NCBI RefSeq assembly: GCF_016595235.1
Contig: NZ_JAENHL010000007.1
Coordinates: 434,001 to 498,000, forward strand
Source: Taklimakanibacter albus
Lineage (GTDB): Bacteria > Pseudomonadota > Alphaproteobacteria > Rhizobiales > Aestuariivirgaceae
DNA length: 64,000 nt
Reading direction: 5' to 3'
In this document: in pieces, positions 30,100-48,043 of the stretch
Position numbering within the stretch: position 1 is the first letter of the stretch
Layout: every line of letters starts with the position of its first letter
Notes under the pieces: generated by a model
Told to the model about the DNA's origin: nothing
Seen by the model: only the letters and a program-made list of their open reading frames with translations
Database searches by the model: none
Translations under genes and position numbers: made by a program

Positions 30100-30113
30100 G
30101 GTCATCCCTCGAG

Positions 30114-30602: not shown

Positions 30603-30619
30603 GTGATTCTCGCGCGAGC

Positions 30620-31099: not shown

Positions 31100-31229
31100 T
31101 GCCGCCCCCAAACATTAATCTTTTTTCATAAACCATTATTTCGTTGGGCAGGCAAGATGTGTCGGGGTTGAACCGGCTCGCCTCCAGGGCCTATGCTCCG
31201 CGACTTCGCAACACCTGAACGGGTTTGAG

Positions 31230-32471: not shown

Positions 32472-32595
32472 GATCCTGACACGCAAAAGTGCGTTTCGGC
32501 AACACGTCGCCCCAAGCTAAATTCAGCATGTCGATCGCGCCTGTCACTTCGGGTTGAGGCAGCCTGAAGCGGCGACGCTTTATAGAGGAGGCCTA

Positions 32596-33237
32596 ATGAC
32601 GAGCAGTATCAATAGACGGCGCTTCCTGGCGGCGGGAAGTGCGGCCTTTGCCGGCCTTGCGGCGACGGCGGCGGGCGCCCAGCAGCAGCTGGAGCAGTTC
32701 CGGCCCGGCAAGGATTACAATGATCTGATCACCTTCCCGCCGACCGACATGAGCAAGATCCCGAAGAAGTTCCGTCGCCAGATCGTGCCGTATGAAGGCC
32801 GCCACTGGCCGGGCACCATCATCGTCAATACCGCCGAGCGCCACCTCTATCTCATCCTGGACGGGCGCGAAGCCATTCGCTTCGGTGTCGGCGTCGGCCG
32901 CGAGGGTTTCCGCTGGGCCGGTCTCGCCGATGTGGAGCGCAAGGTCATGTGGCCGCGGTGGACGCCGCCGCCCGAAATGGTCGAGCGCGATCCCAACGCG
33001 GCGAAATGGAAGGACGGCATGCCCGGCGGCCCCGAAAATCCGCTGGGTGCCCGCGCCCTCTATCTCTTCCAGAACGGCCGCGACACGCTCTACCGCCTGC
33101 ACGGCACCAACGCGCCGCAGACCATCGGCAAGGCCTTGTCGTCCGGCTGCATCCGCATGATCAATGAGGACGTGATCGAGCTCTATAGGCGCGCTCCGAT
33201 CGGCTCCCGCGTCGTGGTCCTGGCGCAGGGCATCTGA
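32596..33237 (+). CDS. L,D-transpeptidase (YkuD domain), copy 1
   Basis: The start at 32596 follows GGAGG closely and gives 213 residues with an apparent Tat signal (SINRRRFLAAGSAAFAG). The YkuD catalytic domain (about 75-212) has HGTNAPQTIGKALSSGCIRM with the conserved His and catalytic Cys. It forms 3-3 crosslinks in peptidoglycan or attaches proteins to it, in the periplasm. A strongly similar paralogue lies at 51147-51821. The transcript is short and stands alone. Confidence 0.9.
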   Translation: MTSSINRRRFLAAGSAAFAGLAATAAGAQQQLEQFRPGKDYNDLITFPPTDMSKIPKKFRRQIVPYEGRHWPGTIIVNTAERHLYLILDGREAIRFGVGVGREGFRWAGLADVERKVMWPRWTPPPEMVERDPNAAKWKDGMPGGPENPLGARALYLFQNGRDTLYRLHGTNAPQTIGKALSSGCIRMINEDVIELYRRAPIGSRVVVLAQGI

Positions 33238-34012: not shown

Positions 34013-35182
34013 ATGTCGGCGCCTTTGCCATTCGCACAGCGCTACCGGACGATTGTCGCCGCCATCGCGACCGTCGCTTCCTGTGACATCGCCATGGGCC
34101 TCACCTTGCAGATGCTGCCGCTGCTGATGGAGAAGGGCCATGTTCCGGCCTGGATCATGGGGCTCAACGCCGCCATGTCGCCGCTCGGCATCATGATCGG
34201 CGGCCCGTTCCTGCCGCGCATCGTCTCGCGCTTCGGATCCAAGCGCGTCGTTTACATCGCCATTCTCGTCACCATGGCGACGCTCGCCGCCTTCAAGCTG
34301 TTCCCCAGCGTATGGGCGTGGTTCGCCATCCGCTTCGTCTTCGGCATGGCCGCCGGTACCTTGTTCACGGTGAGCGAGGCGTGGATCATGAGCGGCGCCG
34401 AGCAGAGCAACCGCGGCCGCACCATGGGCCTCTATACGAGCGTGCTCGCCATAAGTTTTTCGATCGGCCCGCTGATCATCCCGTTCACCGGCATCGACGG
34501 CTGGGCGCCCTGGCTGATCGGCATTCTGTGCGTCGGCATGAGCGCCATTCCGTTGACTTTTCTGCGTATCTCCGAGGATTCCTTCCGCCATGAGGAAGGC
34601 GGCGGCTTCTGGGCCTTCGTGGGCCGAGCGCCGCTGCTGCTGTTCGCCGTCGGCACGCTCACCTTCTTCGACGCGGTCATCTTGTCCTTCTTCCCGATCT
34701 TCGGGCTGCGCTCCGGGCTTCCCGTCGAGCAGGTGACCACCATCCTCGGCGTCTCGATCATCGGCAATGCATTATTGCAACTGCCGATCGGCCTGCTTGC
34801 CGACAAATGGTCCAGGCTCGGCGTGATCGTGCTTTCGGCCATCATCACCGCGGTGCTGGCGCTATCGATGATATGGACGATCCAGTCCTGGCTGATCTGG
34901 CCGGTGATGCTGGTCCTCGGCACCACCGCCTATGCGATCTACACCATCGCCCTCACCATCCTCGGCGATAATTTCAAGGGCCCCGATCTCATCGCCGGCA
35001 GCGCCGCTTTTGCCGCCATGTGGGGGGTCGGCGGCATATTGGGCCCGCCGATCGCTGGGGCTGCGACCGACGCCTTCGGCATCATCGCCATTCCGATCAC
35101 CGTCACGGCCATCTACGTTATCCTGCTGATCGGTCTCGGCCTCTCGCGCGGCCGGATGGTGCAGGGAGTCGCGCATGGATAG
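34013..35182 (+). CDS. MFS transporter, YcaD-like, tandem copy 1
   Basis: This 389-residue protein has twelve predicted membrane spans. The N-terminal half carries DIAMGLTLQMLPLLMEKGH, VPAWIMGLNAAMSPLGIMIG and MAAGTLFTVSEAWIMSG, characteristic of the YcaD/YfkF-type MFS group. The next gene encodes a paralogue and overlaps by 8 bp. The pair aligns along the whole length, so one arose by duplication. Substrate and direction are unknown. Confidence 0.85.
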   Translation: MSAPLPFAQRYRTIVAAIATVASCDIAMGLTLQMLPLLMEKGHVPAWIMGLNAAMSPLGIMIGGPFLPRIVSRFGSKRVVYIAILVTMATLAAFKLFPSVWAWFAIRFVFGMAAGTLFTVSEAWIMSGAEQSNRGRTMGLYTSVLAISFSIGPLIIPFTGIDGWAPWLIGILCVGMSAIPLTFLRISEDSFRHEEGGGFWAFVGRAPLLLFAVGTLTFFDAVILSFFPIFGLRSGLPVEQVTTILGVSIIGNALLQLPIGLLADKWSRLGVIVLSAIITAVLALSMIWTIQSWLIWPVMLVLGTTAYAIYTIALTILGDNFKGPDLIAGSAAFAAMWGVGGILGPPIAGAATDAFGIIAIPITVTAIYVILLIGLGLSRGRMVQGVAHG

Positions 35183-36335
35183 ACAGCGCTGGATCAATCT
35201 CTTCGCCGCCATCTCGGCCGTCACCGTCTTCGGCTTCGCGCTCGGGCTCATATTTCCCCTGCTCTCTCTGGTCATGGAGAAGCACGGCGTGCCGCCGCAC
35301 GTGATCGGCCTCAACACGGCGATGCAGCCCCTGGGCATCCTGGTCTCGGGATTCCTCGTACCGCATTTGACCAGTCGCCTCGGCACCCGGCCGGTGGCGA
35401 TCATCGCCGCCTTCCTGACTGCCACGATAATCGTGGCCTATCCCTTCACGCCGATATATTGGGCGTGGTTCGTGCTCCGCTTCCTCCACGGCCTCGCTGT
35501 CGGGGCGCTGTTCACGGTAAGTGAGGCCTGGGTGGTCGAGGCGGCCTTCGGACCGGCGCGCTCGCGCATCATGGCGCTTTATGCCAGCATCCTGTCCGTC
35601 AGCTTTGGCCTCGGCTCGGCACTGATCAGCTTCACCGGCATCGAAACCATATTGCCCTTCTTCATCGGCGCTGGCTTCCTGGCCGCCAGCACGATACCGA
35701 TGTTCTACTACCGTCCGACCGGCACCTTTATGCCCGAGACCGGGGAGCGCCAGCTTTCCATCCTGGGCTTCGCGCGTCTGGCGCCCATCCTGATCAGCGC
35801 CGTGACCCTGTTTGCTGTCATCGACGCCGCCTATCTGGGACTGATGCCCGTCTACGGGGTCAAGAAAGGTTTCGATCAGGAAACCGCGGCGCTGATGCTG
35901 ACCGCTTTCATCGTCGGCAATGCCGGGCTGCAATTCCCCATCGGCTGGATTGCCGATCACTGGAGCAAGCGCGGCATGATGGTGGTCTGCGCCTTCACGA
36001 CCGTCATCGGCAGTGCCCTCATCCCGTCCGCCTTCGGCACCTGGTTGCTCTGGCCCGTGCTGGTCGTGACCGGTGCCACCTCGGCCGGCATCTACACCAT
36101 GGCGCTGGCCGAGCTCGGCGAACGTTTCTCCGGCAACGAGCTTGTCGCCGGCACGGCCGCCTTCTCCACCACGTGGGGTGCGGGCGCCCTGGTCGGCGCC
36201 CTCATCGGCGGCTGGGCCATGGACCGGTTCGGTCCCGACGGCCTGCCCTACGCGACGGCGATGGTCTTTGCCGCCTTCGTTGTCGCCATCGCCGCCCGCA
36301 CGGCGAGCGCGGGCCGCGCCGCAAGGCGTGCTTAA
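35175..36335 (+). CDS. MFS transporter, YcaD-like, tandem copy 2
   Basis: This 386-residue protein has twelve predicted membrane spans. It shares VIGLNTAMQPLGILVSG, WAWFVLRFLHGLAVGALFT, VSEAWVVE and the C-terminal ELVAGTAAFSTTWGAG with the first copy. The 8-bp overlap implies coupled translation and equal supply of the two proteins. The TAA stop (36333-36335) interlocks with the livM stop on the other strand in the tetramer TTAA. Substrate unknown. Confidence 0.85.
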   Translation: MDRQRWINLFAAISAVTVFGFALGLIFPLLSLVMEKHGVPPHVIGLNTAMQPLGILVSGFLVPHLTSRLGTRPVAIIAAFLTATIIVAYPFTPIYWAWFVLRFLHGLAVGALFTVSEAWVVEAAFGPARSRIMALYASILSVSFGLGSALISFTGIETILPFFIGAGFLAASTIPMFYYRPTGTFMPETGERQLSILGFARLAPILISAVTLFAVIDAAYLGLMPVYGVKKGFDQETAALMLTAFIVGNAGLQFPIGWIADHWSKRGMMVVCAFTTVIGSALIPSAFGTWLLWPVLVVTGATSAGIYTMALAELGERFSGNELVAGTAAFSTTWGAGALVGALIGGWAMDRFGPDGLPYATAMVFAAFVVAIAARTASAGRAARRA

Positions 36336-37336
36336 CCCGTTTTCACGGACCAAGTGAATTCGCGGCTGCCCATGATGCCGCGCGGCCGCGCCAAGAGCAC
36401 GATCAGCATCATCAAAGCAAGGCCGATTTCCCGCAATCCCGGCAGCGCCGGCACCATCAGGCCGGCGAATTCGAAGCCGCCTGAAACGATCCGCAGCATC
36501 TCGGCACAGCCCGCCACCAGGAATGTGCCGATGACCGCGCCGGAAAGACTTCTGATTCCGCCAATGACGAGCATCGCGAGCGTCAGATAGGTAAACTCGA
36601 AATAGAACTGGCTGACCGTCAATACGCCGCGGAAATGCCCTTGCAATATGCCACCCAGCGCGACCAGCGCGGCGGACAGAACAAAGGCCCACAGGCGCAC
36701 GGCGCGAACCGAGATGCCGGTGGCCTTGGCCGCCACCTCGTCCTCGCGCGAAGCTTGCAACATCAGGCCGTAACGTGACGTCTTGAATAGGAAGGCGACG
36801 AACAGCGCCAGAAGCGCCGAGATCAGAGCCGCACCGATGCCGGTTGCGAGCGGCAGGCCCACCAGCGAGCTCGTGCCTCGTGTATAGGCGTCGGTATTGG
36901 CGAGGACCGTTGTCACGATGGCGAGCCAGGCGACGGTTGCGATGCTGGCGCCGAGCCCCGACAGCTGGACGATGATTACCCCGATGAGCAGCCCCACAAG
37001 CGAGGCGAAGGCTACGCCGATGGCGGCGCCCGTCGGCAGACCCACTTGCGTCGACAGCGCGAAGGCCGGAAGTTGCGGAAGAAAGATTTTCTTGGCGGCG
37101 ACCGGCAAGGTGAACCAGGCGGCGCTATAGGCGCCGAGCGCCGCAAAGCTCGCATGCCCGAAGGAGAACACCCCGGAATTTCCGACGAAGACCGCAAGGC
37201 CCAGCACCACGACCAGCTTCACCAGCATGTCGATGACGAAGCGTTGGAAAATATCCGATCCGGCCCAGCCGATACCGGCGACGGCGAGGATCACCAGAGA
37301 CAGCAAAATGAATGTCGACCAGCGCCGCGTCATCAT
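36332..37336 (-). CDS. livM: Branched-chain amino-acid-type ABC transporter permease LivM
   Basis: This 334-residue inner-membrane permease has about nine or ten spans and the LivM signatures GNSGVFSFGHASFAALGAYS (about 50-69), the cytoplasmic SREDEVAAKATGISV coupling loop (about 200-214) and GGIRSLSGAVIGTFLVAG. It is the last gene of a seven-gene run (hyuA, hyuB, binding protein, livG, livF, livH, livM) linked by 4-bp overlaps from livG onward. Despite the family name, such systems import many amides and small acids, so the substrate is probably the one handled by HyuAB. Confidence 0.92.
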   Translation of the reverse strand: MMTRRWSTFILLSLVILAVAGIGWAGSDIFQRFVIDMLVKLVVVLGLAVFVGNSGVFSFGHASFAALGAYSAAWFTLPVAAKKIFLPQLPAFALSTQVGLPTGAAIGVAFASLVGLLIGVIIVQLSGLGASIATVAWLAIVTTVLANTDAYTRGTSSLVGLPLATGIGAALISALLALFVAFLFKTSRYGLMLQASREDEVAAKATGISVRAVRLWAFVLSAALVALGGILQGHFRGVLTVSQFYFEFTYLTLAMLVIGGIRSLSGAVIGTFLVAGCAEMLRIVSGGFEFAGLMVPALPGLREIGLALMMLIVLLARPRGIMGSREFTWSVKTG

Positions 37337-38217
37337 ACGCGCTCCCTCGAGCCAACGCCTTGAAAGAGCCCATCCGGCCGCAACACCAGGATCGCGATGA
37401 CCACGGCATAGACGAAAGCCTCACGAAAAACCCGCAATTCGGGCGGCAGCAGTGCCTGCAGACACACCGTCACCACGCCGACGATCATCCCGCCGAATAC
37501 CGCGCCGACGAGACTCCCCATTCCACCGATGACCGTCGCGACGAACCCTACCAAAGCAAGCTGCAGCCCATAGGTCGGCGCCGCGGTGCCGGTCTGTGCC
37601 GCGAAGAGAACGGCAACGACCGCCGACAGCACGCCGGTCAAGGCGAAGGCAACGGCGATCACGCGATCGCCCTTGATTCCCAGAAGCCGCGCCATCCTGA
37701 AATCGACCGCGGCTGCCCGCATCTCGATCCCGATGCGTGTGCGCCGCAGGAAGAGCGCGATACCGGTCAGCAGGCCGACGGCGACGCAGATCGTCAGGAT
37801 ATTCAGGCGTGGAATGCGGATCTCCCCGATCATGACCGGCAAGCCGAGCTCCGGGATGATGTTGAACCCTATGGGACGCGCCCCGAAGATGAGAACCAGC
37901 ACATTCTGCAGGAGATAGCTGAGCGCAAAGCTGGTGATCAGCATCGTCGCCGGATCGGCGTCGCGCACCGGTTTGAAGGCGAGGCGGTCGGCAAGGAGTG
38001 CCAGCAGTACGACGACGAGAACCGTCAGGATCGCGGCGAGCGGAAACCACAGGCCGACGGTGAGCATCAATGTGTAGATGCCGATGGTCACGAACTCTCC
38101 TTGTGCGAAATTGACCAGCCGCATGACACCGAAGAGCAGGCCGATACCCAAAGCCGAGAGCGCATAGACCGCTCCCACGCTCACCGCATCGACCAGGGTC
38201 TGGATGACGTAGATCAT
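37333..38217 (-). CDS. livH: Branched-chain amino-acid-type ABC transporter permease LivH
   Basis: This 294-residue permease has about eight spans. LivH signatures are ALGIGLLFGVMRLVNFAQGE (about 22-41), EMRAAAVDFRMARLLGI as the coupling loop, and GGMGSLVGAVFGGMIVG. It overlaps livF and livM by 4 bp each. It forms the membrane channel with LivM. Confidence 0.93.
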   Translation of the reverse strand: MIYVIQTLVDAVSVGAVYALSALGIGLLFGVMRLVNFAQGEFVTIGIYTLMLTVGLWFPLAAILTVLVVVLLALLADRLAFKPVRDADPATMLITSFALSYLLQNVLVLIFGARPIGFNIIPELGLPVMIGEIRIPRLNILTICVAVGLLTGIALFLRRTRIGIEMRAAAVDFRMARLLGIKGDRVIAVAFALTGVLSAVVAVLFAAQTGTAAPTYGLQLALVGFVATVIGGMGSLVGAVFGGMIVGVVTVCLQALLPPELRVFREAFVYAVVIAILVLRPDGLFQGVGSRERV

Positions 38218-38945
38218 TGACGTGCTCCGAGCGCGACACCGCCAAGATAGGAGGCATGCAGCTGCTCATCGGCCAGAATCTCAGCGGCAAGCCCTGATGC
38301 CTGGACAGCCCCGCTGCTCAGCACGATCACGCGGTCGGCAACCTCATCGATACGGGCTGGATTCTGCTCGATCAGCAGCAAGGTGGTGCCCAGGCTCTTC
38401 AACTCGGAGAGGATCGCATAGATCTTGTCGACCATCACAGGAGACAGCCCGAGCGACGGCTCGTCCAGGATCAGCAGGCGGGGCTTCGACAGCAGCGCGC
38501 GCGCAATAGCCAGTTGCTGCTGCTCGCCGCCCGAAAGCCGGGTCGCCATCCCGTTGCGCCGCTCATGCAGAATGGGAAACATCTCATAACTCTGTGCCAT
38601 GGCATGTCGGGCGGAGCTTCGATCAGCGAGAACGGTCGTGCCGAGCAGCAGATTCTCGTCAACGGTAAGGCCCTCAAAGATATGGCGCCCCTCGGGAACC
38701 AGCGCCACGCCGAGGCGCGCCGTCGCCTCCGGGCCAAGCCCCAGCAGCGAGCGCCCGGAGAATTCGATCCGCCCAGAGGCTGGCCTGACGATGCCGGTGA
38801 TCGCGAGCGTCAGGGTCGACTTTCCGGCGCCGTTGGCGCCGACCACCGCCAGGGTCTCGCCCTCCCCGATCCGCAGCGAGACGTCGCGGATCGCCGGTAT
38901 CGGGCCGTATTTCACCGTGATATTCTCGATGGCCAGCAGGGTCAC
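38214..38945 (-). CDS. livF: ABC transporter ATP-binding protein LivF
   Basis: This 243-residue ATPase has Walker A GANGAGKST (about 35-43), signature LSGGEQQQLAIARAL (about 138-152), Walker B LLILDEPSLGLSP and switch His region LLLIEQN. It energises the Liv-type importer together with LivG. It overlaps livG and livH by 4 bp each. Confidence 0.94.
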   Translation of the reverse strand: MTLLAIENITVKYGPIPAIRDVSLRIGEGETLAVVGANGAGKSTLTLAITGIVRPASGRIEFSGRSLLGLGPEATARLGVALVPEGRHIFEGLTVDENLLLGTTVLADRSSARHAMAQSYEMFPILHERRNGMATRLSGGEQQQLAIARALLSKPRLLILDEPSLGLSPVMVDKIYAILSELKSLGTTLLLIEQNPARIDEVADRVIVLSSGAVQASGLAAEILADEQLHASYLGGVALGARQ

Positions 38946-39673
38946 GGGCGCGCCCTCTCTCTTCCAGGGCCGAGATAGGCCTGACGCACCAGAGGATCCT
39001 GACCTATCAAGTCTGGCGTTCCCCGCGCGATGACCCGGCCACCATCCATGACGACGAGTCTCTCGCAGACCGACATGACCAGCGTCATATTATGTTCTAC
39101 CAGCAGCAGCCCCAGTCCCGTCTGATCGCGTAAGGCCACGAGCGTGCGGTCCAGCTCCTCGACTTCGCCCGGGGTCATGCCGGCCGCCGGCTCATCGAGC
39201 AGCAGAAAACGCGGCCGCAGGCCGAGTGCCCGGGCGATCGCCAGCCGTCGCTGATGTGCGTAGGATAGCGATCCAGCCGGTTTCTCCTTCAGGTCGGAGA
39301 TCCCCATGAGGGCGAGCAGCTCCGTTACATCCGGAGCGCCCTTGCCCAGCACGGCGACCGCTGCCGCAACATTCTCGGCCACCGTCAGATCCCGGAAAAG
39401 TCGCACTGATTGGAAGGTCCGAACGATGCCGGCACGCGAAATGCGATGGGGAGGCATCCCAGCAAGCGATACGTCGCCGAGGAAGACAGTGCCCCGAGAC
39501 GGCTTTTGAAAGCCGGAGAGTACATTGACCATCGTGCTCTTGCCGGCCCCATTGGACCCGATCAACCCGACGATCTCACCGGCGCCGACATCGAGGTCAA
39601 TTCCAGCGAGCGCTACGAGTCCCCCGAAACTGACACCGACATCACGCGCGGTCAACCGAACCGCATCCATCAT
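38942..39673 (-). CDS. livG: ABC transporter ATP-binding protein LivG
   Basis: This 243-residue ATPase has Walker A GSNGAGKST, signature LSYAHQRRLAIARAL (the LSY form typical of LivG) and Walker B FLLLDEPAAGMTPGE. The C-terminal tail is typical of LivG-type proteins (DPLVRQAYLGPGRER). It begins 18 bp after the binding-protein gene. Confidence 0.94.
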   Translation of the reverse strand: MMDAVRLTARDVGVSFGGLVALAGIDLDVGAGEIVGLIGSNGAGKSTMVNVLSGFQKPSRGTVFLGDVSLAGMPPHRISRAGIVRTFQSVRLFRDLTVAENVAAAVAVLGKGAPDVTELLALMGISDLKEKPAGSLSYAHQRRLAIARALGLRPRFLLLDEPAAGMTPGEVEELDRTLVALRDQTGLGLLLVEHNMTLVMSVCERLVVMDGGRVIARGTPDLIGQDPLVRQAYLGPGRERARP

Positions 39674-39691
39674 CCTGCTTCCCGGCGCGGA

Positions 39692-40873
39692 TCAGAATTT
39701 GAGCTCGGGGATCACTTCGCTCGAGAAGCGCCCGATCGGCTCATGCTTGCCATTCACGATATTGAAGACGAGCATCGGCCGGTCGAGATTTATGTGGGCT
39801 TCCGGCGTGAAGCTTGTTTTCCCGGCAAGGAACGGCTCGTCCTTGAGCTTGTCGAGTTCGGCGCGCACCGCATCCGTGTCGAAAGTGCCGGCCCGCTCCA
39901 CCGCAAGCGCCCAGGCCTCGATGACGGAGTATCCGGTCAGCGCATGCGACGTCGCCGGCTGCTCGCCGAATTTGGCCGTGAACCTGGTGGTGAAATCGTT
40001 GATCTTGGCATCCGGGTCGTTACCGAACGCCGAGCCATAGGCAAGAACGTAGAAATTGCTCAGATCAGGGACCGCACCCAGCCAATAGGCGCCGTCCATC
40101 GATTCACCCGCCAGCAAGGGCAGATCGATGCCAGTTGCACGGATCTGGCGAATGAAGGACGCACCGGCACTGCCGGCGCCACAGAACATCACCGCTTCCG
40201 GCTGCTTGGGACTGGCCTTCAACCGGCTGATCTGGCCGGCAATGGAGGTATCGTTCAAGCCGTGGAAATTGTCCTTGCCCACAATGCCGGCCTCGCCGGC
40301 GAGCTCGATGAAGCGGCGCTCGAAAGACGCGCATAGCGACTTCATATATTCGCCGCTCGTATCCGTCAGCAGATAGGCTGTCTTGAGATTGGCCTGCTTG
40401 TACGCGAACTCTGCCAATATCGAACCCTGAGTGAGGGTGGCCGTGGCCAAGGTGTAAGCATTCGGGCCAATGCCCTGAACGCCGAACTTCGGATCCGCCG
40501 CGCAGGAGGAGAAGGCAAAGACATTCTGGCTTTGCGCGACGATTGCCGCCGGCGCGCCGAAATCGAAATCACAGGTGACCATGATCACCCGGGCGCCTTT
40601 GCCGATGACATCGGTGGCGGCAATGGCACCGACATCGACGTCCGATTTCGTATCGGAGGCCACCGCGATCAGCTTCTTGCCGAGCAGGCCGCCCTTCGTA
40701 TTGATGTCGTCGATCGCAAGCTGCGCGGCTTTATAAGGGCCATCGTCATAGGGCGCAATGAAGCCTGAAAGCGCCAGAGCAAATCCAACCTTCACATCCT
40801 CGTCCGCCAGTGCATAGCCGCCGCCGAGCAGCAATGCCAGCATGGCTGCCTTGATCGCATAGATTTTCTTCAT
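39692..40873 (-). CDS. Substrate-binding protein of the Liv-type ABC transporter
   Basis: This 393-residue protein has a signal peptide (MKKIYAIKAAMLALLLGGGYALA). The type I periplasmic-binding fold shows VKVGFALALSGFIAPYDDGP at the N-terminus, VTCDFDFGAPAAIVAQSQNV and LTGYSVIEAWALAVERAG. It belongs to the amino-acid/amide-binding family (peripla_BP_6). The binding pocket cannot be assigned by eye. It is placed between hyuB (38 bp gap) and livG (18 bp gap), which makes the hyu substrate the likely ligand. Confidence 0.9.
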   Translation of the reverse strand: MKKIYAIKAAMLALLLGGGYALADEDVKVGFALALSGFIAPYDDGPYKAAQLAIDDINTKGGLLGKKLIAVASDTKSDVDVGAIAATDVIGKGARVIMVTCDFDFGAPAAIVAQSQNVFAFSSCAADPKFGVQGIGPNAYTLATATLTQGSILAEFAYKQANLKTAYLLTDTSGEYMKSLCASFERRFIELAGEAGIVGKDNFHGLNDTSIAGQISRLKASPKQPEAVMFCGAGSAGASFIRQIRATGIDLPLLAGESMDGAYWLGAVPDLSNFYVLAYGSAFGNDPDAKINDFTTRFTAKFGEQPATSHALTGYSVIEAWALAVERAGTFDTDAVRAELDKLKDEPFLAGKTSFTPEAHINLDRPMLVFNIVNGKHEPIGRFSSEVIPELKF

Positions 40874-40911
40874 CTGTCGTTCCCTCGTTTGTTTTCTTGA
40901 TTACTGCCTGT

Positions 40912-42687
40912 CTACCGCTCGGCGTGACGAAGCCTCACGGTTTCATTGCGATCGAGCGAGCCGTCCTCACTGACAGCCACGCGATAGACGTCGCGCGCCC
41001 TTTGTGCCGATATCCACTTTTCGGCGACATCGCGCGCGACCGTCTCCGCCTCGCGTTCCGCCGGATTGCCATAGCCGCCGCCACCGCAGGAGATCGACAG
41101 CAGTCTCTCACCCTCATGAATGGTGACTTGGGCGCAGGCATCGAGGCGCTGCAGCGTGCCGTCACGCCTGACGCGGAACTGGTCCGCCTTACCGCCGGCG
41201 CCACCGCCGCGCACGCCGCGCGCCGCATTGACGGTGCCGTCGCTCACATAGGCGACCTGCATGTCACATCCGACCGGCCCGAATTCGACCGACATGGACG
41301 GCGCGCCGCGAAACCGGCCCGCCCCTTCCGTGTCGGGCACGAGCTTGCGTGAGAAGACGCGCAAGGGTTGGCGCATTTCATCGAGCTCGACGCTGTCCAG
41401 ATTGCACATGCCGGCACCACCGACATGCCCGATGACCAGCCAGGCATCGGAGCGCGGTGCCGCGGCACCACCGGTCTCACCGAGAAAGATGTGATTGACG
41501 AATTCCTTCCCGGCCGGATCCACGCCGGAAATGACCCCACCCGCCGGCGCGATGACGGCGCCACATTCGGCCATGCCTGCCCCATTGGCGATCTCCGCGA
41601 TCGCGGCCTGGACGGCATTGGCAACCCGGTCGGCGACATTTGTGGTCGCGACGGAAGTGGATGTGGGATGCCGAGGAATGCCGACCACGCAATTCTCGCG
41701 CAGTTTGACATCAATGCGCCGGCAGGATCCGGCATTCTTGGGAACCCGGTGATCGATGGAATTGAATATGCCGACCATGGCGGCGGTACGCGCGCAGGCT
41801 TCCGATAGATTGAGGCCGCAGGGCAGGCAGTCCGGATTGCGGGTGAGATCGACGGCGATGCGCGCTTCCCTTGGATTGAGGGAAACATCGACGGTGACCG
41901 GGATACCCTCCTCCGGCGCGCCCGGAAAGCGATCATGGGTGCTGGTCCGGGTCATCCGGCCACCCGGCATCGCGGTGACGGCTTCCACCATGCGCTTCTC
42001 CGAATAGTCGAGCCAGGTGGCGCTGAAGTTCTCCAGCGTATCCCAACCGACTTCTTCCGCCAGCACCATGATCTCTCTCTCGCCGATGCGCGCCGACGCC
42101 ACCATGGCCAGGAAATCTCCCCACCATTGATCGGGCACTCTGATCCGCATCCGGCACATGCGGACGAAGTCCTGATCCGTTTCGTAATTCTCCTGCACTT
42201 TCACGGATGGGAAGATCAGTGCGCCTTCCTCGTAAACATCCCTGGCGGCGCCGTGATATGTGGTCGCGATCGAATTGCCGATATCGGCCTGATGGGCCTT
42301 CGCCAGTACGGTGAAGCGATGGGTACCCTCATGGTCCATGACGGGCACCAGAAGCGTATGATCGGCGGCATGGCTGCACCCGTGATAGGGTGAGTTGTTG
42401 AGAAAGGCATCGCCGCGTTTGAGCACCGGACTATGCTCTTTCATCGCCCGCGCCATGATGTCGGGCCCGGCGAGCACATGGATCGGCAGGCCTTCATTGG
42501 CGACGAGGAGCTCGGCGCCGGCGGTAACGATGCAGCAGGAGAAGTCGCGGGCGATATTGATGACACCGGATCGTGCGGTTCTGAGCAGCGTATTCGCCAT
42601 CTTGCGCGTAACGCCTTCGAGGCGATGGGCAAGGATGGCGAGCTGCACGCCGTCCAATCTGGCTTCTTTGTCAATCTGCTGGGTCAC
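40912..42687 (-). CDS. hyuB: Hydantoinase B/oxoprolinase-family subunit (HyuB)
   Basis: This 591-residue protein matches the HyuB family from start (AILAHRLEGVTRKMANTLLR) to end (CGGGGYGNPAEREAETVARD). Internal marks are DAFLNNSPYHGCSHAADHTL and LPCGLNLSEACARTAAMVGI. With HyuA it forms an ATP-dependent enzyme; family members open hydantoin-type rings or 5-oxoproline, or carboxylate ketones (acetone or acetophenone carboxylase). The length and lack of a gamma-subunit gene fit hydantoinase/oxoprolinase better than acetone carboxylase, but this is an inference. It overlaps hyuA by 4 bp. Confidence 0.88.
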   Translation of the reverse strand: MTQQIDKEARLDGVQLAILAHRLEGVTRKMANTLLRTARSGVINIARDFSCCIVTAGAELLVANEGLPIHVLAGPDIMARAMKEHSPVLKRGDAFLNNSPYHGCSHAADHTLLVPVMDHEGTHRFTVLAKAHQADIGNSIATTYHGAARDVYEEGALIFPSVKVQENYETDQDFVRMCRMRIRVPDQWWGDFLAMVASARIGEREIMVLAEEVGWDTLENFSATWLDYSEKRMVEAVTAMPGGRMTRTSTHDRFPGAPEEGIPVTVDVSLNPREARIAVDLTRNPDCLPCGLNLSEACARTAAMVGIFNSIDHRVPKNAGSCRRIDVKLRENCVVGIPRHPTSTSVATTNVADRVANAVQAAIAEIANGAGMAECGAVIAPAGGVISGVDPAGKEFVNHIFLGETGGAAAPRSDAWLVIGHVGGAGMCNLDSVELDEMRQPLRVFSRKLVPDTEGAGRFRGAPSMSVEFGPVGCDMQVAYVSDGTVNAARGVRGGGAGGKADQFRVRRDGTLQRLDACAQVTIHEGERLLSISCGGGGYGNPAEREAETVARDVAEKWISAQRARDVYRVAVSEDGSLDRNETVRLRHAER

Positions 42688-44759
42688 TGTGTGGCCCCCA
42701 TATTTATGGAAAGACTGCCGGACGGTCGCCGGGCAGCCGCCACACCGGGCTCGACGACGACAGTCGTGAAGGGGCTTTCGACGATCAGCGGCCCGGTAAC
42801 GAATTCATTGACGGCCAGCGCCTCGAAATTGTGGACAGGCACGTCGCACCAGCCCTTCTGCGCGAAGAAGCTGCGCCGGGTCGAGGAGCCAACCTCTTCC
42901 TCGTCGGTACGGGCCAAATCTATGCCGCCCGTATCCTTGAACCGGCAATGCACCTGCGCCCGCCAGCCGACGATCTCGATGGGAGACGACGGATCGGAGA
43001 AATTGAAGAGTTCCTGATGTGTCTTGTGGAAGTCGTCGATGAACGCGCCAAGATCGGTAGGTGTCAGAATTTTCCCGGACCGCAGCGGGACCTCTATCTC
43101 CCAGACCTGGGTCGAATAGCGGGCATCGGCCGTGTAGCTGATCTCCACACTTTCGGCGCCCGCACCGGACGCGGCGGCGAAGGCCTGGCAACGCTCGGCC
43201 AATCCGCTGAGCACATCCGAAATGCGATCAAAGTCGAAGCGATCCGTCGCGGCGAAGGCAGCTGCTTGATAATGCGCCTTGAGGCCCGACATCATGGCCC
43301 CAGCCGCCGAAAGTGCGGCCCCCACGGCGGGGATCAACAGAGTCCGGCACCCAAGCCGCTTGGCGATCCGCACCGAATTCAAGCCGGCACCGCCACCGCC
43401 GCCGATGAGGATGGCATCTTTGGGATCGATTCCCTGATTGACCGTGATCGTATTGATGGCCTGCACCATGTTTTCGGTCACGACCGCGAGTATGGCGTCG
43501 GCAGCGGCCTCAACTGAAATGCCAAGCGGTTCCGCCACTCTTTTCCGGATCGCTGCTTCGGCCAGCTTCCTGTCGAGCTTCATTGCTCCACCGAGAAACG
43601 AGTCGCCATCGAGGTGACCGAGAACCAGCGAAGCATCGGTGACGGTGGGTTCGACGCCGCCCTTTCCATAGGCGACGGGCCCTGGAACCGAGCCGGCGCT
43701 TTGCGGCCCCACATGCAGGAGTCCGCCTGAATCGACCCAGGCGATCGAGCCGCCACCGGCACCTACGCTCTTCACATCGACCCAGGGGAATCCGATCATG
43801 GTGCCGCGATGCGGCGCGCCGATCCATGTCTCCCGGATGATGGGGACATGTCCTTTGCGCACCAGGCTGACATCATAGGTGGTGCCGCCGGTATCGGCGA
43901 CGATCGCCGTCGTCGATCCTTCATCGATGGCTGCGAAGTGACGTCCTGCCATCGGCGCCATGGAAGGCCCGGAATTCACGATATGGATCGGCGCCGTCGC
44001 GGCATCCTTGGCATCGATAACACCGCCTTGCGACGTGATCACCAGAACGCGTCCCGGAAATCCCGCTTCCCTGAGGCGCGCCTCGAGATTGGACATGTAG
44101 ATGCCCATCATCGGCTTGAGCGACGCGTCGATGGCGGCCGACGAGGCGCGGCGGAATTCCCGGATGATCGGGTTGAGCTCATGAGAGAGCGTGACAGGAA
44201 TACCCGGAAGATGTGTGCCGAGAAGCGTCCCGATGCGTTGTTCATGATACGGATTGACAATCGACCACAACAGACAGACGGCGACGGCTTCGACGCGTTG
44301 CCGCTTCAGCGTGACGGCGATGCTCGCGATCTCTTCTTCATCGAGCGGAAGCATCACCGACCCATCCGGCAGCGTCCGTTCGGTGACCTCGAAGGTCAAG
44401 GCTCGGGGAATATAGGGTTCTGGATTGGGGTGATCGAAATTGAAAGGATCCGTACGCCCGCCCTCGCGTAGAACGAGCATGTCGCCATGGCCTTTGGTCG
44501 CAATGAAAGCGGTCTTCGCCGTCCGGCCTGTGACGATGGCGTTGAGCGCATGTGTCGTTCCGTGGACAAGAAGCCTGCCTTCGGAAAGAAAGGCCGCACG
44601 GGTCATTCCATATTCGGCGGCGGCGACTTCTAGAACATTGAGCACGCCGGAGATCGGATCGGCCGGCGTCGTCGAGGACTTGAACATCCGACAAAATCCG
44701 GACGCATCCTTGACGACGAGATCGGTAAAGGTGCCGCCTGTATCAATGGCGAACTGCAT
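42684..44759 (-). CDS. hyuA: Hydantoinase A/oxoprolinase-family subunit (HyuA)
   Basis: This 691-residue protein has the N-terminal Hydant_A_N ATP-binding domain (FAIDTGGTFTDLVVKDASG), the central hydantoinase A domain with VADTGGTTYDVSLVRKG (about 270-285), and ILIGGGGGAGLNSVRIAKRL (about 445-465). It has the usual HyuA length and hydrolyses ATP to drive ring or amide opening with HyuB. It is the first gene of the seven-gene uptake operon. Two copies of the TGTGATCACA-type operator precede it, one overlapping the -10 region. Confidence 0.9.
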   Translation of the reverse strand: MQFAIDTGGTFTDLVVKDASGFCRMFKSSTTPADPISGVLNVLEVAAAEYGMTRAAFLSEGRLLVHGTTHALNAIVTGRTAKTAFIATKGHGDMLVLREGGRTDPFNFDHPNPEPYIPRALTFEVTERTLPDGSVMLPLDEEEIASIAVTLKRQRVEAVAVCLLWSIVNPYHEQRIGTLLGTHLPGIPVTLSHELNPIIREFRRASSAAIDASLKPMMGIYMSNLEARLREAGFPGRVLVITSQGGVIDAKDAATAPIHIVNSGPSMAPMAGRHFAAIDEGSTTAIVADTGGTTYDVSLVRKGHVPIIRETWIGAPHRGTMIGFPWVDVKSVGAGGGSIAWVDSGGLLHVGPQSAGSVPGPVAYGKGGVEPTVTDASLVLGHLDGDSFLGGAMKLDRKLAEAAIRKRVAEPLGISVEAAADAILAVVTENMVQAINTITVNQGIDPKDAILIGGGGGAGLNSVRIAKRLGCRTLLIPAVGAALSAAGAMMSGLKAHYQAAAFAATDRFDFDRISDVLSGLAERCQAFAAASGAGAESVEISYTADARYSTQVWEIEVPLRSGKILTPTDLGAFIDDFHKTHQELFNFSDPSSPIEIVGWRAQVHCRFKDTGGIDLARTDEEEVGSSTRRSFFAQKGWCDVPVHNFEALAVNEFVTGPLIVESPFTTVVVEPGVAAARRPSGSLSINMGATQ

Positions 44760-44810
44760 ACACGTCCTCTCTGCTCACTGGTCAGCGGCTGACTGTCATT
44801 CCGCTGTTTC

Positions 44811-44832
44811 TTATTCTGTGATCTCATATTAA
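44811..44832. promoter_or_regulatory. Candidate GntR operator A (hyuA proximal)
   Basis: TTATTC-TGTGATCTCA-TATTAA: a 22-bp site whose core differs by one base from the perfect palindrome TGTGATCACA. It lies just downstream of TTGACA (minus strand, 44846-44841) and covers where the -10 of hyuA should be, so a bound regulator would block the promoter. It matches the operators upstream of the BKACE gene in 18 of 22 positions (compared with site D). Confidence 0.7.
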
Positions 44833-44840
44833 GAAACGAC

Positions 44841-44846
44841 TGTCAA
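44841..44846 (-). promoter_or_regulatory. Candidate -35 element of the hyuA promoter
   Basis: TTGACA on the minus strand, followed by G and C-rich bases as in the BKACE promoter (TTGACAGTCG here, TTGACAGACG there). A strong -10 hexamer at standard spacing is not visible, and operator A occupies that place. The -35 is the better-supported half of this promoter. Confidence 0.45.
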
Positions 44847-44862
44847 CTCGCGCGACGGGCTT

Positions 44863-44884
44863 TTGTTCTGTGATCACACGATTA
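44863..44884. promoter_or_regulatory. Candidate GntR operator B (between hyuA and gntR)
   Basis: TTGTTC-TGTGATCACA-CGATTA: a perfect core palindrome, 52 bp (about five helical turns) from operator A and 38 bp upstream of the gntR start. Its position suits autoregulation of the regulator and, with A, looping across the hyuA promoter. Confidence 0.65.
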
Positions 44885-44921
44885 TTGAACTCCGCACCGA
44901 ATCCCGTAATGTCGATGGACG

Positions 44922-45686
44922 ATGACAAGGCAGGCAAAGAAAACTGTGAAACGGAAGAGCGGCAAGGCCGTGCGCAAGCGCCGGCCCGGAGCCGGGCGCC
45001 CCAAGGCCAGCGCACCGGATTTGCCGCGGATTACACCGCTCGAAGGCATATCTGCCGAGCGCCAGGTCTATGAGGCGTTGCGTTATTCACTGATGAGCGG
45101 CGGCGTCCTGCCGAACGCCGGACTGACCTTGCGCTCGCTTTCCGAGGCGATGGGTGTAAGCCTTACGCCGGTCCGCGAAGCGCTCAAGCGACTTGAAGCG
45201 GATGGCGCGCTGGTGAGCCGGAGCAAGAGCGCCTTCTTCGTCTACGCGCCCGACAAGTCCGACTTCGCTCAAATCACCGATATCCGCCTCAAGCTCGAAG
45301 GCCACGCCATTCGCTGCGCGGCGCTCAAGGCGCGCGAGAGGGATCTGGACAGCCTTCGCCGCATCAACGACCAATACCGCACCGAGCTGAGCAGAGATAA
45401 GATTTCCACCGTCGATACCTTGCAGGTGAATTTTCGTTTCCACTTCGAGGTCTACACGCTTTCAGGATCGCCTATCCTCACCCAGATGATCGAAACCTTG
45501 TGGCTTCGCATCGGTCCCACCTTGCAGCGCGACTGGCCAGCCGACAGCGACATCAGCACCACGATATTTCACGATCAGATGCTCGATGCGCTCGCCCATA
45601 ACGACCCCGATGCGGCGGAGGCGGCATTGCACAACGACCTTACAGCCGCCTATCGCGAGATATTGCCGTTCCTGCGCGATACTTGA
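44922..45686 (+). CDS. GntR-family transcriptional regulator (FadR subfamily, FCD domain)
   Basis: This 254-residue regulator begins with a basic stretch (TRQAKKTVKRKSGKAVRKRR). A winged-helix HTH (about 45-110: YEALRYSLMSGGVLP, SLSEAMGVSLTPVREALKRL) is followed by the FCD ligand domain (about 115-245), with Asp and His residues in DIRLKLEGHAIRC, NFRFHFEVYTLSG and FHDQMLDALAHND that would bind a metal and a carboxylate ligand. It diverges from hyuA across two TGTGATCACA-type operators. It is convergent with the SDR gene, whose operon has the same operators. This makes it the probable regulator of both. Confidence 0.92.
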   Translation: MTRQAKKTVKRKSGKAVRKRRPGAGRPKASAPDLPRITPLEGISAERQVYEALRYSLMSGGVLPNAGLTLRSLSEAMGVSLTPVREALKRLEADGALVSRSKSAFFVYAPDKSDFAQITDIRLKLEGHAIRCAALKARERDLDSLRRINDQYRTELSRDKISTVDTLQVNFRFHFEVYTLSGSPILTQMIETLWLRIGPTLQRDWPADSDISTTIFHDQMLDALAHNDPDAAEAALHNDLTAAYREILPFLRDT

Positions 45687-45695
45687 CCGCCATTC

Positions 45696-46466
45696 TTACC
45701 TTTCATATTCGGCGTTGCCGCACACGCCGATATGCTGACCCGACACGTGGCGTCCGCCTGACGAGCACAGGAACATCATCACCTCCGCGATCTCCTCCGG
45801 CTCTATCTGCGTGCGCATGGAGATGAATTGCAGCTCCTCCGCCATCAGCACCTTCGGCTCGACTCCGAGTTCCTTGGCCTTGCGCTCGAGAATGGAGTTG
45901 GCGCGGGCATTGTTGATCCATCCGGGGAGAATGGTGTTCACACGGATATTGAACGGACCGAGCTCACGCGCCAGGGTTTCCGTCAGGCCGAGGACGCCGA
46001 CTTTCGAGACCGCATAGGGCAGCCGGTGCGGCAGCCCGGTGCGGGCACTTGTCGAGGATACGTTGAGAATGGTCCCTCCTCCGGCCTGCTTCAGCAGCGG
46101 GATGGCCTTGCGGACGCAATAGAAGAAGCCCGACAGATTGACGGCGATCGTGCGGTCCCATTCCTCCGGCGCCACGTCCTCGGCCGCCGCCGCGGGTCCA
46201 GCGATTCCGACATTGTTGATGAGGACATCGAGTCCACCCAGCGCCGCCGAGGCCTCTTCGAAAAGCTGGTCGACAGCATCGGCGCGGCCACAGTCGCAGA
46301 CGCTGGCGGAGATCTTCTCCGGGCCTGCCGCCAGCGCCTTGACGGCGCGCGCATCGATATCGGCGATATGGACATAGGCGCCGGCCCTGGCGAAACAGGT
46401 CGCGATGGATGCGCCGGCACCGCCCGCGGCGCCGGTAATGAGAACGCGAAGCCCCCGCAGATTCAT
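45696..46466 (-). CDS. SDR-family NAD(P)-dependent dehydrogenase
   Basis: This 256-residue classical SDR has the cofactor loop TGAAGGAGASIATCFARAG (about 11-29), Asp in HIADID, which favours NAD(H), NNVG, catalytic Ser in NVSSTSARTG and YAVSK as the Tyr-xxx-Lys pair, followed by NIRVNTILPGW. It oxidises or reduces an alcohol or ketone. As the third gene of the BKACE operon it may produce the beta-keto acid substrate from a hydroxy acid. Its stop lies 9 bp from the convergent gntR stop. Confidence 0.9.
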   Translation of the reverse strand: MNLRGLRVLITGAAGGAGASIATCFARAGAYVHIADIDARAVKALAAGPEKISASVCDCGRADAVDQLFEEASAALGGLDVLINNVGIAGPAAAAEDVAPEEWDRTIAVNLSGFFYCVRKAIPLLKQAGGGTILNVSSTSARTGLPHRLPYAVSKVGVLGLTETLARELGPFNIRVNTILPGWINNARANSILERKAKELGVEPKVLMAEELQFISMRTQIEPEEIAEVMMFLCSSGGRHVSGQHIGVCGNAEYER

Positions 46467-46469
46467 ATG

Positions 46470-47060
46470 TCATTTCTCCTTGATAGCTGAATGATAGGTT
46501 GGCGCCGCACGGCGAAAATGGCCGGACCGGTAGCGTTGCGCCTGGTTGCGGTAGTGCTGTGCGCCCGCCCGCAGCTCCGCAGCCGCGGCCGATGAAAGTT
46601 CGCGGACCTTTCGCGCCGGACAACCGAGCCACAGGCTTTGCGGATCCACTTGCGTGCCGGGCGCGACAACGGCGCCGGCTCCGATCAGCGCTCCCACGCC
46701 AATGGTGGCGTTATCGAGCACGATCGCGCCCATGCCGATGAGGGCGTTTGCCCCGATGGCGCAGCCATGCACGATCGCGCCATGGCCGATGGTGACGTCA
46801 TCGGCGATGCTGACGAGGCCACCCTCATCGCCATGGATGATGACGCCATCCTGGATATTCGTCCCACTTCCGATCCTGATCGGGCAGATATCGCCGCGCA
46901 AAACTGCGCCGAACCATATACTCGCACCTTCGCCGATCTCGACATCACCGATGATCACGGCGGTCGGGGCCAGAAAGGCCGTGGCCGAGATCACCGGAGC
47001 AGCTTCGCCATAGAGATAGGCTGCCGCGGAGAGCGGCTCGTCCTCGCGCGCGCTTTGCAT
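46470..47060 (-). CDS. Left-handed beta-helix hexapeptide-repeat protein (gamma-carbonic anhydrase/PaaY/CaiE-like)
   Basis: This 196-residue protein consists of hexapeptide repeats (about 20-150: AVIIGDVEIGEGASIWFGAV, IGANALIGMGAIVLDNATIG) and a C-terminal helix (ELRAGAQHYRNQAQRY). Three His that bind zinc in gamma-carbonic anhydrases are present in GVIIHGDEGG and VTIGHGAIVHGC. Related proteins in catabolic operons (PaaY as a thioesterase, CaiE in carnitine metabolism) suggest a CoA-ester or metal-related role rather than CO2 hydration. It follows the BKACE stop by 2 bp and precedes the SDR gene by 3 bp. Confidence 0.8.
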   Translation of the reverse strand: MQSAREDEPLSAAAYLYGEAAPVISATAFLAPTAVIIGDVEIGEGASIWFGAVLRGDICPIRIGSGTNIQDGVIIHGDEGGLVSIADDVTIGHGAIVHGCAIGANALIGMGAIVLDNATIGVGALIGAGAVVAPGTQVDPQSLWLGCPARKVRELSSAAAAELRAGAQHYRNQAQRYRSGHFRRAAPTYHSAIKEK

Positions 47061-47062
47061 GT

Positions 47063-47953
47063 CTAGCGCTTTCTCAGACCCAGTATCTCGCGCGCCTCAT
47101 CGGGTGTCGCCACCTCGAAGCCGAGGCTCTCGATAATCGTCCGCGCCCGCGCAACCAGTTGCCCGTTGGTCGCGAAGACACCGCGCTTGAGATAGAGATT
47201 GTCCTCAAGCCCGACGCGCACATTACCGCCGAGAAGTACCGACTGGGCCACCATCGGCATCTGCATCCGGGCAATACCGAAAGCGGCCCAGTTGGCTCCT
47301 GCGGGCAGAAGGTTGCGCATGTAGATCATCGTCTCAGGCGTGGCCGGCAGGCCCCAATTGGTCCCCATGACGATCTGATACATCGGCGGCAGATCGAATA
47401 GGCCGTCGGCAAGCATGCGATTGGCCAGCAGAATGTCCCCCGGCGCGAAGACCTCGATCTCGGGCTTGACGCCGAGCTCCTGGAAGCGCCGCGCCATCTT
47501 GCGCAATGTCGCCTGGGTGTTCAGATAGACATACTCGACCTCGCCGTCCGTCTGGTTCTGCGTGCAGACGTCGAGCGAGCACATTTCCGGCAGAATCATT
47601 TCGATGTGGCGCACGCGCGCCTCGGCCGAGGCGATCTCCGATCCCGGACCGGCACGGCCCTCATCCTCTGGGTCGGGAAAGAACAGGCCACCGCCGCCGC
47701 AGGTGACATTCATCACCGCCTTGACGCCGTTGTCGCGCACCAGCGTCGCCATTTCGAGGAAGAGATCGGGGTCGCTGCTGCCCTCGCCGGTGACCGGATT
47801 GCGGACATGGAGGTGAACTGCTGACGCCCCGGCCTCTTCGGCCTCGCGTGCAGAATCGGCGATCTGCTTTGGCGTGATGGGAAAATTCGGATGAGCGCGG
47901 TTGAAGTTGGTTTCGCCGACGACGGCGCAGGTGAGGACTACTTTACGGGTCAT
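47063..47953 (-). CDS. BKACE (DUF849) beta-keto acid cleavage enzyme
   Basis: The start at 47953 (MTRKVVLTCAVVGETNF) gives 296 residues; an upstream in-frame extension of three codons begins at 47962. BKACE enzymes condense a beta-keto acid with acetyl-CoA to give acetoacetate and a new acyl-CoA. The zinc ligands are visible as His47 and His49 in VHLHVR, and Glu250-Asp251 in VGLEDNLY; Glu14 (VGETN) also matches the active site of the founding member Kce. It is the first gene of a three-gene operon with the hexapeptide protein and SDR. Two GntR-type operators flank its promoter. Confidence 0.9.
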   Translation of the reverse strand: MTRKVVLTCAVVGETNFNRAHPNFPITPKQIADSAREAEEAGASAVHLHVRNPVTGEGSSDPDLFLEMATLVRDNGVKAVMNVTCGGGGLFFPDPEDEGRAGPGSEIASAEARVRHIEMILPEMCSLDVCTQNQTDGEVEYVYLNTQATLRKMARRFQELGVKPEIEVFAPGDILLANRMLADGLFDLPPMYQIVMGTNWGLPATPETMIYMRNLLPAGANWAAFGIARMQMPMVAQSVLLGGNVRVGLEDNLYLKRGVFATNGQLVARARTIIESLGFEVATPDEAREILGLRKR

Positions 47954-47977
47954 TTGTCGCAATCTTCCGGGTCTGAA

Positions 47978-47999
47978 TTATTATGTGATCGCAGATAAA
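47978..47999. promoter_or_regulatory. Candidate GntR operator C (BKACE proximal)
   Basis: TTATTA-TGTGATCGCA-GATAAA: matches operator D (read on the other strand) in 19 of 22 positions. It lies 24 bp upstream of the BKACE start, just downstream of the expected -10, where a bound repressor would block transcription. Confidence 0.7.
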
Positions 48000-48019
48000 A
48001 TGCACACCGCAAGAGCGTC

Positions 48020-48025
48020 TGTCAA
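48020..48025 (-). promoter_or_regulatory. Candidate -35 element of the BKACE operon promoter
   Basis: TTGACA on the minus strand, 3 bp from the core of operator D. An A/T-rich -10 candidate (ATTTTA, 48001-47996) follows after 18 bp. Together with operators C and D this forms a compact regulated promoter. Confidence 0.5.
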
Positions 48026-48043
48026 TCTGTGATCACATAATAA
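48022..48043. promoter_or_regulatory. Candidate GntR operator D (BKACE distal)
   Basis: On the minus strand TTATTA-TGTGATCACA-GATTGA, with a perfect 10-bp core palindrome (48028-48037). Its edge overlaps the -35 element. It lies 44 bp (about four helical turns) from operator C. Confidence 0.7.

Follow-up and report, generated by a model that had tools for sequence, protein, structure and literature searches.

We analyzed a 64,000-nucleotide stretch of the 7.17-Mb genome of Taklimakanibacter albus (contig 7, positions 434001-498000; here called the window) that carries genes for a predicted ATP-dependent amidohydrolase (HyuAB), a short-chain dehydrogenase (SDR) and a beta-keto acid cleavage enzyme (BKACE). 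The same three functions recur together in distant genomes whose BKACE and HyuA belong to different subfamilies, and this recurrence supports a functional link among them. We favor, with moderate confidence, the view that the window genes form one GntR-controlled catabolic regulon for import, ATP-dependent amide opening, oxidation and BKACE cleavage. The locus is a new combination of known enzyme kinds with a shared operator: in the literature searched, which most subscription journals fall outside, none of the titles and abstracts listed described this gene set, and no paper contained both BKACE and hydantoinase.

The first-pass annotation of this DNA had described a hyuAB-Liv run, a second run of BKACE, hexapeptide protein and SDR genes, and a GntR/FCD gene between the two. 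That description holds. All 11 of the 11 genes named at 36332-48043 are open, without internal stops, and lie in this arrangement (Table 1). Run 1, on the minus strand, reads hyuA-hyuB-binding protein-LivG-LivF-LivH-LivM, with adjacent genes overlapping by 4 bp or lying 18-38 bp apart. Run 2, also on the minus strand, reads BKACE-hexapeptide protein-SDR, with gaps of 2-3 bp. The GntR/FCD gene sits between the runs on the plus strand, divergent from hyuA, and its end is 9 bp from that of the SDR gene.

HyuAB, SDR and BKACE cluster in distant genomes

The nearest named carrier of the locus found was 'Rhizobiales bacterium Y(2018)', and the locus is present in full in the sister species, at 93-99%. 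Beyond these, HyuAB, SDR and BKACE recur in Cupriavidus, Exilibacterium, Halieaceae, Rhizobium, Phyllobacterium and Niveispirillum and in four further genomes; Liv genes stand with them in three of these. Presence or absence of genes was decided by tblastn, because the gene caller missed real genes in some loci (for example, a paralogous BKACE of T. albus, described below). A genome scan from the BKACE side gave 17 loci, the sister species contributing 2; apart from that species, two Exilibacterium loci and one Halieaceae locus have HyuAB nearby at 50% identity or more. Eight plasmid records with HyuA at 50% or more stood among the 50 matches listed of 1013. BKACE is present in the fetched stretch of four of these eight (Cupriavidus, Niveispirillum, Rhizobium sp. 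BT03 and Phyllobacterium zundukense), and in a fifth, from Sinorhizobium chiapasense, it is ~28 kb away. Cupriavidus pinatubonensis carries GntR, hyuA-hyuB-gamma-carbonic anhydrase (gamma-CA) and SDR-SDR-BKACE; BT03 and Phyllobacterium carry GntR, BKACE, SDR, five Liv genes, a 4HBT thioesterase, hyuAB and CoA-transferase genes.

How often does BKACE accompany a HyuA of the window's clade? We searched 398 and 385 genomes for HyuA, scoring only the best two or three candidates in each. Thirty of 31 further matches at ~50% or more were used (G688, in the same place as L060, was left out), and at each locus we examined ~9 kb on either side or as far as the contig end. BKACE was present in 6 of the 30 stretches: one from G469, where GntR and five Liv genes in the window's order stand with it, and five from G547, G641 and G664. 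Random placement of BKACE would give 0.46 (P 5e-6), when loci are counted as independent though three of the six are from G664. At G792, BKACE is 9.4 kb off, just beyond the examined stretch.

The trees bear on how these pairs arose. We built a HyuA tree of 62 rows, leaving out the L064 hyuA (two frames), and a BKACE tree of 65 rows, leaving out the partial L052 BKACE. The label "BKACE-linked" (15 rows, one from a control set at 41-45%, see below) needs six gains or losses on the HyuA tree, and starred branches force five of these. For the label "Hyu-linked", the BKACE tree needs seven, six of them so forced; its rows fall into the window clade, a six-row Niveispirillum-type clade, the BT03/Phyllobacterium pair and L093. 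Repeated assembly is the easiest explanation for pairs that combine different HyuA and BKACE lineages, which argues for a functional link.

Several findings weigh against the reading that we favor. Losses and gains alike may account for the label changes on the trees. The window HyuA groups (94/89, not starred) with two HyuA that are without a BKACE in reach; one of these, L068, shares the hyuAB-Liv order. BKACE was absent from the examined stretch at 24 of the 30 same-clade loci; the BKACE-less loci include the nearest HyuA relatives outside the sister species (L068 and L069, the latter with HyuA at a contig edge) and two further HyuA copies of the T. albus genome. The 6 of 30 compare with 1 of 20 loci with a HyuA at 41-45% (20 of 22 used; G764:C5 and G638:C13 left out), which is not a significant difference (Fisher P 0.14). 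In Variovorax and Burkholderia arboris, related HyuAB stand with an APH-type kinase and a class-III pyridoxal phosphate (PLP) enzyme (the B. arboris proteins being 45% and 59% to the Variovorax ones), and the fetched stretch shows no BKACE. Putative pocket residues vary between Hyu-linked BKACE lineages, so substrates may differ between loci. Finally, the presence of an SDR weighs little, since SDRs are ubiquitous and the window protein belongs to a very large family. Co-occurrence across genomes, proposed earlier as a check on the locus, is thus borne out by the clusters in distant genomes and not by the majority of same-clade HyuA loci.

Other features of these loci were noted. At L065 and L062, on Variovorax and Burkholderia arboris plasmids, the genes for the kinase and the PLP enzyme come after HyuAB, and the Variovorax pair resembles the two end parts of PRK06148. 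Kinase/PLP pairs of this kind can act on a vicinal amino alcohol. If they do so here, then by conjecture an amino-hydroxy acid as the HyuAB product would fit both the BKACE and the kinase/PLP routes. A kynureninase-like gene (by eye; L068 5398-6639) lies upstream of the closest hyuAB-Liv run without BKACE. In the deposited record, the Phyllobacterium hyuA (L064 10001-12092) appears as two overlapping annotated frames. Rhizobial plasmids repeatedly carry a gene of the UPF0262 family near BKACE or HyuAB (L058, L063, L064 and L067).

Both runs carry the same operator

The operator is a 22-bp AT-flanked palindrome around TGTGATCNCA, present in four copies, two at each promoter region. The core TGTGATCNCA has six strand matches in the window against 0.64 expected, a number reached in 0 of 100 shuffles. 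The 22-bp pattern has four genome-wide matches, all at this locus, and its reversed control has 0; the pattern was fitted to the four sites themselves, so that some of this specificity is built in. In the genome, the exact 10-mer TGTGATCACA has three occurrences, two of them at this locus. The third (C7:919971) is within an open frame and has flanks that are not AT-rich; we took it to be chance.

All four operator cores are kept in the sister species. Cupriavidus has TTGTGATCACAA in front of its GntR gene and again between its hyuA and SDR genes, Shinella has a kindred site, ATTCTGAGATCACAGAAT, in front of its SDR gene, and weaker forms of the operator are found at the paralogous locus of T. 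albus. Palindrome scans of eight other loci found no like site in six, and other GATC-centred sites in two (L063 and L090). The four copies, their retention in the sister species and the kindred sites at relatives' promoters support the prediction that both runs form one shared regulon. Position, conservation and recurrence likewise make the GntR protein the likely binder of the operator. The segment TPVREALKRL, which we take to be part of the DNA-binding helix of GntR, is identical in the window and paralogous regulators; hence, cross-regulation of the two loci may occur.

It had been claimed that both runs start at promoters with the same 22-bp operator. The operator stands, in its four copies; a sigma-70-type promoter consensus was looked for at both operator regions and none was found, so that "promoter" is meant by position only.

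HyuAB resembles amidohydrolases more than carboxylases

HyuA has 691 aa and HyuB 591 aa; their genes overlap by 4 bp, and the binding-protein gene follows 38 bp further on. The ATP motifs of HyuA (DxGGT, DxGGT and GxxPGP) are intact, with D6, D289 and GSVPGP at 356-361, and match those of CapA. The HyuB metal tetrad D48/H106/D109/H132 aligns with D41/H99/D102/H124 of CapB. Caprolactamase CapAB is also the closest solved structure of both subunits (456 and 164 bits). The P. jessenii (Pseudomonas jessenii) enzyme is likewise a two-subunit ATP-dependent amidohydrolase with the same ATP and metal motifs (in the excerpts of PMC8453981 consulted). The window proteins differ from it in falling below the cut-offs of 1000 of the caprolactamase models NF050156 and NF050157 (563 and 238 bits), which makes them relatives of caprolactamase and not caprolactamase itself.

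Could HyuAB instead be a bicarbonate-dependent ketone carboxylase? The SDR would then make a methyl ketone from a secondary alcohol, a gamma-CA would give bicarbonate, HyuAB would make the beta-keto acid and BKACE would cleave it. Acetone and acetophenone carboxylases are homologues and produce beta-keto acids (according to parts of PMC5214803), a gamma-CA-family gene lies in the window operon and adjoins hyuBA in Cupriavidus, and caprolactamase, the closest solved relative, requires bicarbonate (PMC8453981, in part). We judged Hyd-type against carboxylase-type by gene number and subunit lengths, following the portion of PMC5214803 that sets out these features. Neither a third small subunit nor the 4-5 gene set of the acetone/acetophenone carboxylases is present in the hyuAB run, and HyuA scores 456 bits with CapA against 283 and 197 bits with the Apc and Acx chains. 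Furthermore, the paralogous locus retains SDR and BKACE without HyuAB, gamma-CA occurs in BKACE loci without HyuAB within ~10 kb (L055, L058 and L067), and, as noted, the Variovorax and B. arboris HyuAB loci are without BKACE in the fetched stretch. Given subunit number, length, scores and the paralogous locus, a carboxylase is not our first choice, and we regard it as very improbable. We conclude that the number of genes, the lengths of the subunits and the intact motifs for ATP and metal support the assignment of HyuAB as a Hyd-type ATP-dependent amidohydrolase, in agreement with its first-pass annotation as an amide-opening enzyme.

At five of the 30 same-clade loci (L070, L071, L072, L076 and L077), hyuA is followed by two different full-length tandem hyuB genes, 60-65% to the window HyuB.

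BKACE neighbours a carnitine-linked clade

We placed the BKACE start at an ATG (47953); the listed 299-aa open reading frame opens at TTG, 47962. The PF05853 match (302 bits against a cut-off of 24.8) covers positions 1-274 of 274. In this family HxH and Glu bind metal, and Arg and Asp are catalytic; H50, H52, R249, E253 and D254 are kept in the window protein (numbering of the 299-aa frame). Glu14 of Kce is the acidic residue that holds the amino group of 3-keto-5-aminohexanoate. On our mapping of the alignment its position is T18 in the window BKACE, so an acidic residue of that type is absent, and we set Glu14 aside as a predictor of substrate.

On the BKACE tree, the window clade of 18 rows (100/98) neighbours a 36-row clade, the joining fork being 87/83 and the root arbitrary. 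A carnitine-dehydrogenase-like gene lies near 28 of those 36 rows and near 3 of the 18 window-clade rows, the label being a tblastn one that may take in other 3-hydroxyacyl-CoA dehydrogenases. No gene of this type, taken as a mark of dehydrocarnitine-type BKACE, was found within 10.5 kb of the window BKACE or in 26001-62000. L-carnitine degradation loci, known here from annotation only (Caballeronia L118 and Agrobacterium L121), resemble the window in combining a beta-hydroxy acid dehydrogenase with BKACE, and in Caballeronia a thioesterase. They differ in having a 3-hydroxyacyl-CoA-type dehydrogenase in place of the SDR and no amidohydrolase, and the TAGMGGD segment of the carnitine-linked rows compared is TCGGGGL in the window BKACE, a segment in which Hyu-linked lineages also vary among themselves.

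Thioesterase or bicarbonate supply for the hexapeptide protein

The hexapeptide protein has PF00132 repeats and retains three His (H76, H93 and H98), R55, D57 and Q70. In the gamma-CA family three His bind metal, and R, D and Q are gamma-CA residues. Neither curated equivalog cut-off is passed (183 of 250 bits for NF050158; 136 of 320 bits for PaaY). PaaY, according to parts of PMC4498308 and PMC467105, is a thioesterase and also a gamma-CA. The window protein shares its hexapeptide family and metal-binding histidines, and departs from it in scoring 136 bits where the PaaY cut-off is 320.

Does this protein supply bicarbonate to HyuAB rather than hydrolyze a thioester? CapAB activity needs bicarbonate (excerpts of PMC8453981), the hexapeptide gene adjoins hyuB in Cupriavidus, and the gamma-CA residues just listed are all present. 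Across 33 BKACE loci, window and sister species included, gamma-CA is found in 7, 4HBT thioesterase in 9 and both in 0; the chance probability of this mutual exclusion is 0.08, hence it is only a hint. The presence of a 4HBT thioesterase in place of the hexapeptide protein at other loci is a hint of acyl-CoA hydrolysis. Four of the 7 gamma-CA-bearing BKACE loci, one of them on a 3.8-kb contig, have no HyuAB within ~10 kb, and a tie between gamma-CA and HyuAB is therefore not supported. Taken with the thioesterase activity of PaaY, these counts tell against bicarbonate supply, which we hold possible but second choice; thioesterase, our first choice, is possibly the role of the protein. As PaaY has both activities, both roles could be true.

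A second locus retains the BKACE end without HyuAB

At C7 928-937 kb, the same genome has a BKACE, an SDR and a GntR gene whose products are 84%, 76% and 63% to the window copies. This paralogous locus also has a Pot-type ABC transporter and a Gfo/Idh/MocA dehydrogenase, and the 36 kb fetched around it gave no HyuA, HyuB, hexapeptide or 4HBT match. Shinella has a locus of the same type with a gamma-CA gene added. Because GntR-SDR-BKACE occurs without HyuAB/Liv in the same genome, HyuAB-Liv looks like a separable entry module. From its sequence, the locus thus looks like a shared SDR-BKACE-GntR core joined to an exchangeable HyuAB-Liv entry, one of at least two entries in this genome.

Might the window then hold two catabolic functions under one regulator, HyuAB-Liv serving one amide and SDR-BKACE another compound, with no common intermediate? 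HyuAB-Liv without BKACE in reach at L068, and SDR-BKACE without HyuAB at the paralogous locus and in Shinella, are what this would lead one to see. The clustering of HyuAB and BKACE in distant genomes with different BKACE subfamilies speaks for a common route, as do the operators common to both runs in this genome, and we consider two separate functions unlikely.

Two more same-clade hyuAB pairs (57%) lie elsewhere in this genome (L086 on G000 C3 and L087 on G000 C8); genes for other transporters lie near them, and BKACE is absent from the stretch.

A proposed pathway

In the single regulon that we favor, the Liv-type importer would take up an N-containing compound, and HyuAB, of the hydantoinase/caprolactamase branch, would open an amide or lactam with ATP to release a beta-hydroxy acid. 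The SDR would oxidize this to a beta-keto acid, and BKACE would move the acetyl end to acetyl-CoA, giving acetoacetate and R-CO-CoA. The gamma-CA/PaaY-like protein would most likely hydrolyze R-CO-CoA, as the 4HBT thioesterase may elsewhere, or alternatively provide bicarbonate for HyuAB. GntR, on the four operator copies, would be released once an intermediate accumulates. The single-pathway reading of the first-pass annotation thus gains from the HyuAB-SDR-BKACE link and the shared regulon; the step order, and the passage of one compound through all steps, are still inferred.

Deoxyribose/deoxyribonate catabolism in Pseudomonas simiae offers a precedent for ring opening, SDR and BKACE, proposed there in that order. 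In the parts of PMC6365646 that describe it, a ring-opening hydrolase, SDR, BKACE and transporters lie in one putative operon, as in the window; the hydrolase is a lactonase in place of HyuAB, and the transporters are MFS in place of Liv.

More tentatively, and with considerable doubt on our part, HyuAB-SDR-BKACE may be a type of pathway that is widespread and has been assembled repeatedly, a counterpart of carnitine and deoxyribonate catabolism that serves lactams or amides of beta-hydroxy acids. Here it would oxidize an amino-hydroxy acid and cleave it to aminoacyl-CoA and acetoacetate, with a gamma-CA-fold thioesterase acting last. One candidate substrate among several is a nor-carnitine such as 4-amino-3-hydroxybutyrate, from 4-hydroxy-2-pyrrolidinone. 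A literature search on a tropane/ecgonine pathway gave nothing on point among the papers listed, and no ligand can be named from the solved relatives of the binding protein, which are too distant (best 4gnr, 98 bits).

Features of the locus and neighbouring genes

Table 1. Genes and operator copies of the locus (window coordinates)
Feature	Position	Strand	Match, comment or sequence
Liv-type ABC permease (LivM position)	36332..37336	-	PF02653 94 bits; same place in hyuAB-Liv runs of L068 and L096
Liv-type ABC permease (LivH position)	37333..38217	-	PF02653 115 bits
Liv-type ATPase (LivF-like)	38214..38945	-	top NCBIfam match LivF 207 bits, below model cut-off 441
Liv-type ATPase (LivG-like)	38942..39673	-	top NCBIfam match LivG 231 bits, below cut-off 362
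Periplasmic binding protein, HAAT/Liv family	39692..40873	-	PF13458 154 bits; best solved relative 4gnr, distant, 98 bits
HyuB, predicted metal subunit of ATP-dependent amidohydrolase (CapB-like)	40912..42687	-	PF02538 387 bits; metal tetrad
HyuA, predicted ATP subunit of ATP-dependent amidohydrolase (CapA-like)	42684..44759	-	PF01968 235 bits; ATP motifs
GntR/FCD regulator, likely operator binder (predicted)	44922..45686	+	PF00392 and PF07729; relatives adjoin kindred operators
SDR dehydrogenase, proposed beta-hydroxy acid dehydrogenase	45696..46466	-	PF13561 181 bits; 76% identical copy in paralogous locus
Hexapeptide protein, gamma-CA/PaaY family	46470..47060	-	NF050158 183 bits (cut-off 250); PaaY 136 bits (cut-off 320)
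BKACE, beta-keto acid cleavage enzyme	47063..47953	-	PF05853 302 bits; best solved relative 3c6c 416 bits
Operator copy 1, hyuA/gntR intergenic	44811..44832		TTATTCTGTGATCTCATATTAA
Operator copy 2, hyuA/gntR intergenic	44863..44884		TTGTTCTGTGATCACACGATTA
Operator copy 3, upstream of BKACE	47978..47999		TTATTATGTGATCGCAGATAAA
Operator copy 4, upstream of BKACE	48022..48043		TCAATCTGTGATCACATAATAA

By eye, two related tandem genes at 34013-36335 (~39% alike) look like membrane-transporter genes; they converge with the Liv run at its end, and no match to the operator pattern lies there. The locus is flanked, at 32554-33237 and 51147-51821, by two related proteins whose starts look Tat-like by eye (58-66% by the sister species' copies). 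Three small tandem genes at 29629-31111, related to one another, have starts that by eye resemble those of lipoproteins, and the sister species has more copies of them.

Implications

Genes for hydantoinase/oxoprolinase and for BKACE are common in the genomes searched, and a substrate is known for few of them. A thioesterase function of the hexapeptide protein, if real, would add a catabolic role to a group usually annotated as carbonic anhydrase. With the BKACE end in common and the entry different, the two loci of T. albus are a natural control, and their substrates can be sought as a pair. The recurrent pairing narrows both families: a single oxidation should separate the amide product from a beta-keto acid.

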